From NCBI RefSeq assembly GCF_001306175.1, contig NZ_LGKN01000004.1, positions 62,001 through 126,000 on the forward strand: a stretch of DNA of 64,000 nucleotides, written 5' to 3'. The DNA comes from Ardenticatena maritima (GTDB lineage: Bacteria > Chloroflexota > Anaerolineae > Ardenticatenales > Ardenticatenaceae). Shown here piece by piece: positions 25,067 through 29,839 of the stretch. A model generated the notes under the pieces. It did not search any database and was not told where the DNA came from. It saw only the letters and a list, made by a program, of their open reading frames with translations. How positions within the stretch are numbered: the stretch's first letter is position 1; the number at the start of each line of letters is the position of its first letter. Made by a program: the position numbers and the translations under genes.

Positions 25067-25083
25067 CTGTGCACATTGCACAG
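25067..25083. promoter_or_regulatory. Palindromic operator upstream of the PucR-type gene
   Basis: CTGTGCA-CAT-TGCACAG: 7-base perfect arms around 3 bases. The same sequence core (TGTGCA-N3-TGCACA) occurs upstream of glnA at 26852-26870. Its centre is about 67 bases before the -10 box at 25140. Confidence 0.7.
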
Positions 25084-25139
25084 AAAGAACCGTCGCGTTT
25101 TCGGCATGATTGGGCATACCTTCCCACGCACCGCCCTGT

Positions 25140-25150
25140 TATGCTACAAT
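25140..25150 (+). promoter_or_regulatory. -10 region of the PucR-type gene promoter
   Basis: TATGCT (25140-25145) overlaps an alternative TACAAT (25145-25150). No good -35 box is seen 16-18 bases upstream, which suits a promoter needing an activator. A half operator TGCACAAA (25152-25159) follows directly. Confidence 0.45.
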
Positions 25151-25187
25151 CTGCACAAAGCCAACCAAGAATCCAGCCTAAACTGCT

Positions 25188-26723
25188 ATGCCTTCAAGCG
25201 AACTGGTCACCCAAACCATGCGTGACGTCTGGCGGCTTGCCCTGCCCTTGGGCACGCGGCTCGTCGCCGGGCGCATTGGGCTTGTGCGCTCTGTCCGCTG
25301 GGTACGCACCAGCAACCCCACGCTCCCGCTTTTCCCTGAGTTGAACGCGGACGAACTCGCCATCCTGGACATGCGCGCCGCACGCACTATCAACCCCCTG
25401 TTGCGGCTTGAACGTGTTGTCCACGCCCTTGCCGAGATTCCTGTGTCCGGGCTGGCGGTGAACAGCGAGGTTGACGAAAGCGCCCTGCGCGCCGCCGAAC
25501 AGAACGGGTTGCCGCTCTTCATCCTGCCCGCCGGAGAAGACCTTCAGCGCACAGCGCGCGCTGTTGTGCGCCTGCTGATTGACCGTGAAATTCAGGAAGA
25601 AACCCGTAGCGCCGAACTGCTCCGCCGTTTCACAGCCCTGCTAGCGCACGAAGAGGGACTCGACGCGGTCTTGCAGGCGCTGGCAACCTTCACCGGGCAT
25701 CTGGTCGAACTCAGTGTCGGGGGGGAAACCCTGCGCCACGCCCCGCCGCACATGGACGCTCCCCACAGCCCCATCACGTGGCCTGTGTACACCCACGCAC
25801 TTCATGACAACGACGGCGCCACCATTGCCACCTTGCGCCTTTTCAACACGAACGCCGACAACTTCGACCGCCTCACACAACTTGCTGTTGAACAAGCGGC
25901 AACCGCCCTCTCGCTCGAACTCTCCAAACTTCGCGCCATTAGCGCCGTCCAACACGCCATCCACGCCGACATCCTCGACGCGATCACCGCCCGCGAAGAC
26001 CCCGACATCATTCGGGCGCGGGCGCGCGGGCTGGGCTACGAGATTGACGGCGCCCACCTGGTGATTCTAGCCGCCACGCCCACCGAAACGCAGTGGGACT
26101 TATGGGCGCGCCGCATTCGCGACCTGGCGGCACGCCACAACTGGAACGCCCTCACCATCAATCGCCCCGACCGCCTGGCGATTTTGCTCGGCACAGAAAA
26201 TGCCGCCCGGTTCGTCGGGCTCAACGAATGGCTGGACGCCTGCCGCGCCGCGTGGAATGGTCAACCGCTGACGCTGGCGGTGAGCGAGGTTCGCCAGGGG
26301 CTGGACGGCTTGCGCGACGCGCTCACGCAAGCCGAAGATACGCTCGCGCTCGGTGTGCGCCTCTTTGGACATGGGCAGACGTTCCGCTACACCGCCATGG
26401 GGCTTTACCGCCTCTTCCGCCACCTGGACGGCAATCCCGAACTATTCGAATTCTACGCCCAAACCATCGCCCCACTGATTGCCTACGACCGCGAACACAA
26501 CACCGACCTGTTGCACACGCTGGAAACCATTCTGGCACACCGCGGCAACATCAGCCGCACCGCCGCCGCGCTTCACCTGCACCGCAACTCACTCGCCTAC
26601 CGTCTCCAACGCATCAAAGACATTACCCACCTTGACCCTCTCGACCCCGAAGACGCTTTCCGGTTCCATCTGGCTCTCTATCTGCGCCCCCTGGTTGAAC
26701 CCCATTTGCACACCCCCGATTGA
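25188..26723 (+). CDS. PucR/CdaR-family transcriptional regulator
   Basis: A 511-residue regulator. The N-terminal part (about 1-125) is a PucR-type domain (LPLGTRLVAGRIGLVRSVRWV), the middle is a GAF/GGDEF-like sensory region, and the C-terminus (about 445-505) is the HTH_30 domain (TLETILAHRGNISRTAAALH, RNSLAYRLQRI). PucR/CdaR proteins regulate catabolic or nitrogen-related genes and often themselves. The gene lies directly upstream of glnA and both carry the same palindrome at matching positions, so nitrogen-assimilation control and autoregulation are plausible (inference). Confidence 0.88.
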   Translation: MPSSELVTQTMRDVWRLALPLGTRLVAGRIGLVRSVRWVRTSNPTLPLFPELNADELAILDMRAARTINPLLRLERVVHALAEIPVSGLAVNSEVDESALRAAEQNGLPLFILPAGEDLQRTARAVVRLLIDREIQEETRSAELLRRFTALLAHEEGLDAVLQALATFTGHLVELSVGGETLRHAPPHMDAPHSPITWPVYTHALHDNDGATIATLRLFNTNADNFDRLTQLAVEQAATALSLELSKLRAISAVQHAIHADILDAITAREDPDIIRARARGLGYEIDGAHLVILAATPTETQWDLWARRIRDLAARHNWNALTINRPDRLAILLGTENAARFVGLNEWLDACRAAWNGQPLTLAVSEVRQGLDGLRDALTQAEDTLALGVRLFGHGQTFRYTAMGLYRLFRHLDGNPELFEFYAQTIAPLIAYDREHNTDLLHTLETILAHRGNISRTAAALHLHRNSLAYRLQRIKDITHLDPLDPEDAFRFHLALYLRPLVEPHLHTPD

Positions 26724-26851
26724 CCGCGCCTGCTTTTTCAAAGTGCACAAACGCCGGCTGCCCCTCTTCTCGCCCAAGCCACGCCGCCAAGGGGCATATG
26801 GGCACCCCCACAGGCGCAGCGACACCCACGCGGTCCATTCCACGCCTGTCA

Positions 26852-26870
26852 TTTGTGCAACATGCACAAA
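26852..26870. promoter_or_regulatory. Palindromic operator upstream of glnA
   Basis: TTTGTGCA-ACA-TGCACAAA: 8-base perfect arms around 3 bases. It matches the pucR upstream palindrome and is centred about 66 bases before the -10 box at 26925. A half site TGCACAAA also lies at 26744-26751. Confidence 0.75.
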
Positions 26871-26924
26871 CAAGACCCAGGGACTTTTAGCCAAAAAGCC
26901 GTAGGATTCATATGGGCACTTTGC

Positions 26925-26930
26925 TATGCT
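26925..26930 (+). promoter_or_regulatory. -10 box of the glnA promoter
   Basis: TATGCT, identical to the -10 of the PucR-type gene and at the same distance (within 1-2 bases) from its palindrome. The -35 position (TAGGAT) is poor. The leader to the glnA ATG is about 50 bases with GGAGGA near its end. Confidence 0.5.
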
Positions 26931-26986: not shown

Positions 26987-28417
26987 ATGGCTCTCGACTG
27001 CAAAACCCCAAAAGACGTTATTCACGCCATCAAAGAACACAACATCCAAATGGTGGATTTCCGCTTCACCGACTTGCCGGGAACCTGGCAACATTTCAGC
27101 GTGCCCGTCCGCCTCATAGATGAAGACCTCTTTGAAGAAGGGCTTGGTTTTGACGGCTCGTCCATCCGCGGGTTCCAGGCCATCAACGAATCCGATATGC
27201 TTCTGCTCCCCGACCCGACGACGGCGTTCGTAGACCCGGTACTCGAAGTCCCGACACTCGCCATCATCTGCGACGTGTACGACCCCATCACCCTGCAACC
27301 CTACACGCGCGACCCGCGCTACATCGCCAAAAAAGCCGAAGCCTACTTGAAGCAAACCGGTATCGGCGACACCTCTTACTGGGGGCCCGAAGCTGAATTT
27401 TTCGTCTTCAGCGATGTGCGCTACGGCACCTATCCCTACCAGGCGTTCTACAAAGTGGACAGCCCCGAAGCCTGGTGGAACAGCGATAAAGACCTTGGCC
27501 CCAACCTGGGCGCGCAAATTCCGCCCAAGCGCGGCTACTTCCCCACGCCGCCCACCGACACCTTGCAAGATGTGCGCAGCCGCATGGTGCTGGCGCTCGA
27601 AGCCGCCGGTGTTCCGGTTGAACTGCATCACCACGAAGTGGCCACCGCCGGGCAGGGCGAAATTGACTTGCGCTTTGACACCCTCGTGCGCATGGCAGAC
27701 CGCATCATGATGTACAAGTACATCATCAAAAACGTGGCGCGCCAGCATGGATTGACGGCGACGTTCATGCCCAAGCCGCTCTATGGCGACAACGGCAGTG
27801 GTATGCACGTCCACCAAAGCATCTGGAAAGACGGCGTCAACATTTTCTGGGATGAAGCGGGCTACGCCCAACTCTCCGAAGCCGCTGTGCACTACATTGG
27901 TGGGCTTCTGACGCACGCGCCGAGCCTGCTGGCGTTCTGCGCCCCCACCACCAACTCGTACAAGCGCTTGGTGCCGGGCTATGAAGCCCCTATCAACCTC
28001 GTCTATTCCCAGCGCAACCGCTCGGCCATTTGCCGCATTCCCATGTACAGCAAGAGCCCGAAATCCAAGCGCATCGAATTCCGCGCCCCCGACCCATCGG
28101 CGAACCCCTACCTGGCGTTTGCGTCACTGCTCATGGCAGGCTTGGACGGCATCCAAAACCGCCTCGATCCGGGCGAACCGATTGACAAAGACCTCTACGA
28201 CCTGGAACCGGAAGAAGCCGCCCACATCAAGAACACGCCCGGCTCACTCGAAGCCGTCATTGAAGAACTCAAAGCCGACCACGAGTACTTGCTGCGCGGT
28301 GACGTCTTCACCGAAGACGTACTGGACGCCTACATCCGCTACAAAGTGACTGAGGAAATTGACGCGGTGCGCTTGCGTCCACATCCGCAAGAATTCGTGC
28401 TCTACTTCGACGTTTAG
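26987..28417 (+). CDS. glnA: Glutamine synthetase type I with adenylylation-type tyrosine
   Basis: A 476-residue GSI. It has the N-terminal beta-grasp (DFRFTDLPGTWQHF), FDGSSIRGF, the GPEAEFFVF metal site, GNGSGMHVHQS-like NGSGMHVHQSIWK ATP motif, and CAPTTNSYKRLVPGYEAP. Near the C-terminus, DKDLYDLEPEE contains Y404, the position adenylylated in beta-type enzymes such as that of E. coli (NLYDLPPEE). It condenses ammonium and glutamate. An upstream palindrome suggests regulation by the neighbouring PucR-type protein. A second GS follows after a terminator. Confidence 0.95.
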   Translation: MALDCKTPKDVIHAIKEHNIQMVDFRFTDLPGTWQHFSVPVRLIDEDLFEEGLGFDGSSIRGFQAINESDMLLLPDPTTAFVDPVLEVPTLAIICDVYDPITLQPYTRDPRYIAKKAEAYLKQTGIGDTSYWGPEAEFFVFSDVRYGTYPYQAFYKVDSPEAWWNSDKDLGPNLGAQIPPKRGYFPTPPTDTLQDVRSRMVLALEAAGVPVELHHHEVATAGQGEIDLRFDTLVRMADRIMMYKYIIKNVARQHGLTATFMPKPLYGDNGSGMHVHQSIWKDGVNIFWDEAGYAQLSEAAVHYIGGLLTHAPSLLAFCAPTTNSYKRLVPGYEAPINLVYSQRNRSAICRIPMYSKSPKSKRIEFRAPDPSANPYLAFASLLMAGLDGIQNRLDPGEPIDKDLYDLEPEEAAHIKNTPGSLEAVIEELKADHEYLLRGDVFTEDVLDAYIRYKVTEEIDAVRLRPHPQEFVLYFDV

Positions 28418-28473: not shown

Positions 28474-28504
28474 GCGCCTGGCGACAAAGCAGGGGAGCAT
28501 GCCT

Positions 28505-29839
28505 ATGCCAACATTCGAGGAGATTTGGGCGCGTATCGAAGCCGAAAATGTGCGCTTCATCCGTCTGCAATTCACCGACATTGTCGGACACGTCAAAAAC
28601 GTCACCATTCCTGTCGAAAAATTGGAAGACGCCATCACCCACGGCGTCTGGTTCGATGGGTCATCCATTGAAGGTTTTGCACGTGTCGCCGAAAGCGACA
28701 TGTACCTGAAACCCGACCTGAGCACCTTCGCCATCTTGCCATGGGAACGGCGCGAACAAGCCACCGCCCGCATCATCTGCGACGTGTACACGCCGCACGG
28801 CGACCCCTTCCCAGGCGACCCGCGCGAGGTGTTGCGGCGCGCGCTCGCCGAAGCCGCCGAGCTCGGTTTTGGCTACCAAACGGGTCCCGAACCCGAATTC
28901 TTCCTCTTCAAGCGCGACGCCAGCGGTCGCCCCATCCTCGAACCGCATGACGGCGCCGGCTATTTCGACGAAAGCACCGATTTGGGGCTCGACGTGCGCC
29001 GCCAAATGGTGAACGCCCTGCAAGCCCTCGGTATCGAAGTGGAAGCCACCCATCACGAAGTCGCCCCTGGGCAACACGAAATAGATTTTCGCTACGACGA
29101 CGCCCTGCGCACCGCCGACAACGTGGTCACCTTGCGCATCGCCGTCAAAACCATTTCCCAGCGCAACGGGTTGTACGCCTCATTCATGCCCAAACCCATC
29201 TCCGGCATCAACGGCAGTGGCATGCACACCCACCAAAGCCTTGTGCGGCTTGAAACAGGCGAAAACGCCTTCGTGGACCCGCATGGCGAATACGGATTGA
29301 GCGCCATCGCCCGCTGGTTCATCGCCGGGCAACTCGCGCACGCCCGCGCATTGAGCGCCGTCGTCGCGCCGACGGTGAACTCGTACAAGCGCCTCGTGCC
29401 CGGCTACGAAGCCCCCGTGTATGTCTCGTGGGCGCGCTTCAACCGCTCGGCGCTCATCCGCGTGCCCAGCATCAGCACCGGGCGCTGGCAAAGCACGCGC
29501 GTCGAACTGCGCAGCCCCGACCCATCGGCAAACCCCTATCTCGCCTTTGCCGCCATGCTCGCCGCCGGGCTGGACGGCATCCGCCGCCAACTTGAACCAC
29601 CACCACCCGCCGAAGAAGACCTCTTCCACCTGGACGCCCGCCGTCTCTCGCGCCCGTTGGAACTTTTGCCCAACTCGCTCGCCGAAGCGTTGGACGCACT
29701 CGAATCAGACGAGGTGATTGCGTCGGCGCTGGGTCCGCACCTGTTGAGCCGCTTCATCGAAGCCAAACGGCGTGAATGGGACGACTATCGGGCGCACGTC
29801 TCAACATGGGAGATTGAACGCTACTTTGAAATTTTCTGA
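28505..29839 (+). CDS. Second type I glutamine synthetase, lacking the adenylylation tyrosine
   Basis: A 444-residue GSI-family enzyme with FDGSSIEGFARV, GPEPEFFLF, NGSGMHTHQS and APTVNSYKRLVPGYEAP, all active-site motifs intact. The segment corresponding to the adenylylation loop reads EEDLFHLD, with Phe374 in place of Tyr, and no 25-residue beta-type insertion is apparent, so it looks alpha-type. The start is the ATG at 28505, seven bases after GGGGAG; a closer ATG at 28499 is only one base from it. It could be a biosynthetic GS under different control or a gamma-glutamylamide-type ligase. Confidence 0.88.
   Translation: MPTFEEIWARIEAENVRFIRLQFTDIVGHVKNVTIPVEKLEDAITHGVWFDGSSIEGFARVAESDMYLKPDLSTFAILPWERREQATARIICDVYTPHGDPFPGDPREVLRRALAEAAELGFGYQTGPEPEFFLFKRDASGRPILEPHDGAGYFDESTDLGLDVRRQMVNALQALGIEVEATHHEVAPGQHEIDFRYDDALRTADNVVTLRIAVKTISQRNGLYASFMPKPISGINGSGMHTHQSLVRLETGENAFVDPHGEYGLSAIARWFIAGQLAHARALSAVVAPTVNSYKRLVPGYEAPVYVSWARFNRSALIRVPSISTGRWQSTRVELRSPDPSANPYLAFAAMLAAGLDGIRRQLEPPPPAEEDLFHLDARRLSRPLELLPNSLAEALDALESDEVIASALGPHLLSRFIEAKRREWDDYRAHVSTWEIERYFEIF

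Follow-up and report, generated by a model that had tools for sequence, protein, structure and literature searches.

Little is known of how nitrogen assimilation is controlled in the Chloroflexota, a phylum that abounds in soil, sediment and waste-water sludge. A stretch of 64,000 nucleotides from Ardenticatena maritima (hereafter, the window) contains two matching palindromes, one upstream of a gene for a PucR-type regulator and the other upstream of glnA, and this arrangement raises the question of which protein recognizes the two sites and to what effect. The analysis presented here makes it probable that the PucR-family protein encoded between the sites recognizes a tandem pair of operators and so activates both its own gene and nitrogen assimilation.

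Palindromes, promoters and genes in the window

The palindrome upstream of the regulator gene (operator O1, CTGTGCA-CAT-TGCACAG) occupies positions 25067-25083 and that upstream of glnA (TTTGTGCA-ACA-TGCACAAA) positions 26852-26870, neither being assigned to a strand. Each is followed on the plus strand by an extended -10 element, TGTTATGCT at 25137-25145 in the regulator promoter and TGCTATGCT at 26922-26930 in the glnA promoter, centred 67.5 and 66.5 bp from the respective O1. An earlier note, made from the sequence alone, had placed matching palindromes about 66-67 bp before identical TATGCT boxes with poor -35 boxes, and this description is confirmed (boxes at 25140-25145 and 26925-26930). 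The extension, which that note did not mention, consists of a TGN preceding TATGCT in both promoters, with identical letters (TGNTATGCT), and no TTGACA-like hexamer is present 17 bp upstream of the -10 box at either of them. If transcription begins 7 bases past the -10 box, O1 is centred near -77 in the regulator promoter and near -76 in that of glnA. A lone operator half-site, TGCACAAA, is also seen at the predicted transcription start of the regulator gene (25152-25159, plus strand), in this genome and in its sister, and could possibly act as a feedback site. An operator-like site past the regulator stop codon (26733-26751), with one perfect TGCACAAA half, is absent from the sister genome and within chance expectation, and was discarded as probably fortuitous.

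The gene lying between the two palindromes (25188-26723, plus strand) encodes, as had been proposed, a PucR-type protein of 511 residues, with Pfam matches to PucR, GGDEF_2 and HTH_30. Its domains comprise an N-terminal PucR domain (residues 22-129), a GAF-like region (about 157-245), a GGDEF-like domain (271-387) and HTH_30 (441-498). The PucR domain (PF07905) scores 43.4 bits against a cut-off of 33.5 and HTH_30 (PF13556) 77.4 bits against a cut-off of 27, so that both exceed the Pfam thresholds that define membership in the family; both were also matched in 17/17 relatives. None of the named PucR equivalogs of NCBIfam (AdeR, CdaR, PmfR) was recovered, the best score being 51 bits for cut-offs of 600-800. 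The search for related loci returned one true relative only, and the regulator of the close relative Ardenticatena sp. is 84% identical. The target gene glnA (26987-28417, plus strand) matches type I glutamine synthetase in NCBIfam (TIGR00653), and is followed by a second glutamine synthetase-like gene (28502-29839, plus strand), with which, judging from the short gap, it is probably co-transcribed.

The frequency of the palindrome was evaluated in the complete genome. At its G+C content, about 0.2 perfect TGTGCA-N3-TGCACA cores are expected in 3.56 Mb and two were found; a 17-bp scan allowing up to two mismatches located the perfect core at the two window sites only. At two mismatches the counts are at or near chance level, both within the window (5 observed, 4.9 expected) and across the genome (26 sites versus 18 in the control), so weak matches mean little. 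The best remaining site of the genome, TTGCGCA-CCT-TGCACAA (contig C3, 323198-323214, genome G000), has a single mismatch, no other site lying within one mismatch, and a TACCAT -10 box is centred 67.5 bp downstream of it. Among the other near-matches checked, a TANNNT hexamer at that spacing occurs only at the regulator-gene site described above. The only amt gene of the genome starts about 300 bp past this third site (C3, 323516). This constitutes a blind confirmation, since the motif alone found the site and the target was named afterwards. The random scatter that the earlier note had proposed as grounds for refutation is thus not observed, and the set of targets is broader than that note held. 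A common operator at glnA, amt and the regulator gene, as expected of a general nitrogen regulator, occurs both in this genome and in its relatives; however, qualifying promoters in Ardenticatena number only three, and the term global therefore applies to the relatives and not to Ardenticatena itself.

Conservation and spacing of the operator in relatives

In the sister genome both operators, both extended -10 boxes and their spacing are kept, while the central triplets differ, the operator of the regulator gene being TTGTGCA-TTT-TGCACAG. In another family of the same class (f6) the order regulator gene, palindrome, glutamine synthetase gene recurs in nearly all genomes checked, and in genus g227 of family f1 and in families f10 and f91 the palindrome, or a form with one mismatch, lies upstream of glnA with the regulator gene elsewhere. 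The footprint upstream of orthologous glnA genes, suggested earlier as a check, is therefore present across families. The sister genus (G402, G403, G404) shows partial loss of the arrangement: the regulator is unlinked and its own gene lacks a site, while upstream of glnA the operator is kept in G403, reduced to a half-site in G404 and not seen in the 272 bp available before the contig end in G402. Among 19 sites gathered without any spacing rule, 17 have a -10-like hexamer centred 66.5-68.5 bp from the palindrome, and in the two exceptions the palindromes are damaged.

Promoters were then sought with the composite pattern TGTGCA-N3-TGCACA-N56..58-TANNNT, using the reversed pattern as control. 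Matches were obtained in 59/396 genomes of the class, versus about 9 control hits, and in 47/365 genomes of the phylum, versus a single control hit. Most of the genes that follow, as assigned from homology or NCBIfam, are glnA; others are amt, amt with P-II, urtA beside urease, gltB, ilvB, ilvD and liv-type ABC transporters. A minority of matches, in G325, G668 and G695, have no nitrogen gene downstream and were considered background. From this distribution, the palindrome is very probably the operator of a nitrogen-control protein of the Chloroflexota.

Several families depart from the Ardenticatena layout. In f7 and f119 (L204, L212, L213, L258-L263, L287) the regulator and operator lie upstream of ilvB or ilvD, not of glutamine synthetase genes, an arrangement that would tie the regulator to the synthesis of branched-chain amino acids. 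In f118 (L271, L272, L273, L275) an operator of the type TTGTGCA-ATA-TGTACAA covers the start codon of the regulator gene, with the ATG inside, and suggests direct feedback repression in that family, where the full composite is found elsewhere, at glnA or amt. In f30 (L308, L311, L325, L313) further composite matches precede genes resembling, by eye, amino-acid permeases and nitrite reductase.

Alignment of 83 non-redundant composite promoters revealed a degenerate second copy of the operator (O2) at +33/+34, with a mean of 6.3/16 operator letters over a background of 4.0 (sd 0.55) and a signal in both halves. The letters between operator and -10 box, among which T25, T26, G28, T36, G37 and C39 are conserved, played no part in the selection of the promoters. 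The spacing peak in this set is partly circular, many of its loci having been fetched by the composite pattern, and the evidence for spacing is that of the 19 sites and the amt site. In single promoters O2 is weak (8/16 letters), and the copies assigned in the window, at 25099-25118 in the regulator promoter (+33 or +34) and at 26885-26904 in the glnA promoter (+34), neither with a strand, are to be read as candidates, the signal being class-wide. O2 is centred near -43, where activators that contact sigma usually sit, and about 3.2 helical turns from O1, a geometry suggestive of two dimers or a tetramer occupying O1 and O2 in place of the missing -35 box.

Identity of the regulator and alternative readings

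The occurrence of the regulator was compared with that of the composite promoter, using a profile (A1) of 17 regulators, most of which come from genomes where an operator lies close to the gene. A homologue was found in 176/396 genomes of the class, namely in 55/59 of the composite-positive genomes and 121/337 of the others (odds ratio 24.5, Fisher p = 1.4e-17), and a single-sequence search of the phylum gave 38/47 and 91/318, respectively (p = 9e-12), p-values which overstate the association as the genomes are not mutually independent. When the nine exceptions in the phylum were searched with the profile, a homologue was recovered in seven; the other two are G325, whose match is background, and G322, which is 81% complete. 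About a third of the composite-negative genomes of the class carry a regulator homologue.

The position of sites relative to the regulator gene itself provides a line of evidence separate from these presence and absence counts. In 40 regulator genes drawn from several families, sites with up to two mismatches occur within 240 bp past the stop codon in 14, versus 0.4 expected and at most 2 in 60 shuffles, while the start regions contain four sites with up to one mismatch, versus 0.02 expected, and a gene-internal control region none. Genes downstream of the regulator in the families with such sites are gltB-like, ilvB, ilvD or glutamine synthetase genes. The central proposal of the earlier note, a PucR-type protein that regulates both its own gene and nitrogen assimilation, is supported by these data, although binding and activation are here inferred from co-occurrence, adjacency and geometry.

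The palindrome might alternatively be the operator of another nitrogen regulator, the PucR-type gene being merely a target or a neighbour. Such a reading would account for the regulator gene without a site in the sister genus and for the Chloroflexia-type genomes (f25), in which full-length homologues, 34-36% identical, coexist with zero composite matches. Nevertheless it is considered unlikely, given that sites cluster at the PucR gene even in families where that gene is unlinked to glnA, that regulator and motif co-occur strongly, that most of the exceptions are either incomplete genomes or sites unrelated to nitrogen, with a homologue recovered by the profile in seven of the nine in the phylum, and that no other regulator family repeatedly adjoins the operator in the loci inspected. 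As a separate observation, the operator-less Chloroflexia-type homologues (L017-L036) mostly carry NLRATS, or a similar sequence, in place of N-x-S-x-T-A in the first helix of the HTH, positions that may possibly determine specificity. As for the established regulators, the consensus sites of GlnR/TnrA, NtcA and NtrC are TGTNA-N7-TNACA, GTA-N8-TAC or TGCAC-type boxes. None of these fits the TGTGCA-N3-TGCACA operators, whose half-sites are oriented opposite to those of NtrC boxes. Control by NtrC and sigma-54 was rejected as unlikely because rpoN (TIGR02395) was not found in the Ardenticatena genome, four control genomes being positive, and because the promoters are of the -10 and not of the -24/-12 type; the preference given on first reading to a PucR-type protein over GlnR or NtrC is thus supported.

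A PucR protein that binds the sites but represses, or that loops the DNA and mainly limits its own synthesis, has a low probability in our estimation. The half-site TGCACAAA where transcription of the regulator gene is predicted to begin and the operator over the start codon in f118 would suit repression, and there are precedents in the family, Bacillus PucR being both activator and repressor (PMC7652997) and Streptomyces EpuRI being reported as a negative regulator (PMC9397018). Yet the operators of glnA and amt, near -76/-43 and upstream of a -10 box without -35, have the layout of activated promoters, and spacing that is fixed throughout the phylum implies contact with the polymerase, in agreement with the earlier view that the position fits an activator. 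That the palindromes are a chance resemblance or a hairpin in the transcript, such as a terminator, is scarcely credible. Two-mismatch sites do occur at chance frequency, but the palindromes are conserved with changed spacers, fixed spacing and the same genes across the phylum, with controls near zero. They also lie upstream of the promoters, have no T run after them and match no Rfam family, on which account a riboswitch or hairpin was rejected.

Proposed mechanism and relation to known systems

In the preferred reading, that of activation by the PucR-family protein, O1 would be the high-affinity operator of the regulator encoded between the two sites, its inverted half-sites being contacted by a pair of subunits whose recognition helices are spaced by about a turn of DNA. 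In every target promoter O1 has its centre near -76, and the weaker O2, 33-34 bp further down and near -43, would cover the -35 region; two dimers of the regulator, or one tetramer, would fill both. Once bound, the protein would recruit RNA polymerase with sigma-70 to an extended -10 element which by itself presumably makes a weak promoter. In Ardenticatena the regulator would activate amt, the gene that encodes it, and the pair formed by glnA and the second glutamine synthetase gene. The predicted targets in relatives further comprise gltB and genes for urea uptake and branched-chain amino acids, and there it would act as a general regulator of nitrogen assimilation.

The regulator would presumably sense nitrogen or amino-acid status. 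The region between the PucR and GGDEF-like domains (residues about 157-245) is likely a GAF-like domain, as indicated by a weak profile match to CodY GAF chains, the closest by profile (E about 5e-4), and by a low-confidence structure model (mean pLDDT 42), built on an alignment of two sequences, with a GAF-like order of elements at 157-267; a fold search with this model returned GAF proteins, which at such confidence is a hint only. CodY senses branched-chain amino acids and some families have ilv genes among their targets, so that an amino acid is a fair guess for the ligand, and no more than that. A wider proposition, which we put forward tentatively and hold with less than even confidence, is that a PucR-family protein, and not GlnR, NtrC or NtcA, regulates nitrogen metabolism across the phylum, together with that of branched-chain amino acids in some of its families, through tandem operators near -76/-43 at promoters without a -35 box and in response to an amino acid or nitrogen signal received by the CodY-resembling GAF-like domain.

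In the open-access literature, to which the search extended, no account of nitrogen assimilation under PucR control was found for Chloroflexota. The gain consists of a named candidate regulator, an operator that is precisely defined, the layout of its promoters and a list of targets, testable in one cultured species. The operator could help in annotating the nitrogen genes of many uncultured genomes, and the PucR family would be widened from local catabolic switches to a general regulator of assimilation.

Among known systems, GlnR/TnrA, NtrC, NtcA and AmtR resemble the present one in having one operator common to glnA and amt, their own regulator gene included, but belong to other protein families with other operators, and no sigma-54 gene was found in the Ardenticatena genome. 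CodY of Firmicutes has comparable targets (ilv, amino-acid transport and nitrogen genes, here seen across relatives) and its GAF domain is weakly similar by profile, and possibly related, to the middle region of the regulator; in contrast, its DNA-binding domain is different and it mainly represses. Streptomyces EpuRI and EpuRII are PucR-type proteins. As is predicted for the regulator described here, they control glutamine-synthetase-like genes (PMC9397018), but theirs encode gamma-glutamyl-polyamine or -ethanolamide synthetases for amine catabolism, instead of an assimilatory glnA. PutR, AdeR and PucR of Bacillus subtilis and GabR of Corynebacterium are members of the same family, with a PucR domain, usually a GGDEF-like domain, a C-terminal HTH_30 and nitrogen-related targets; most of the published members act as activators, and several recognize inverted repeats, of 17-24 bp for PutR, AdeR and GabR (PMC7652997). 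Each of these proteins governs one catabolic pathway (proline, alanine, purines or GABA), whereas the targets here are genes of nitrogen assimilation itself (glnA, amt, gltB and urt), and the layout of O1, O2 and -10 box, fixed across the phylum, sets the present system apart from them. Finally, Mycobacterium MabR (9f80) shares the C-terminal half, GGDEF-like plus HTH_30 (E = 8e-21 to profile A1), and forms dimers and tetramers, its structure suiting a palindrome read by recognition helices one turn apart (PMC11617747); it differs in its globin-like N-terminal domain and in its mycolic-acid target, with no role in nitrogen metabolism.
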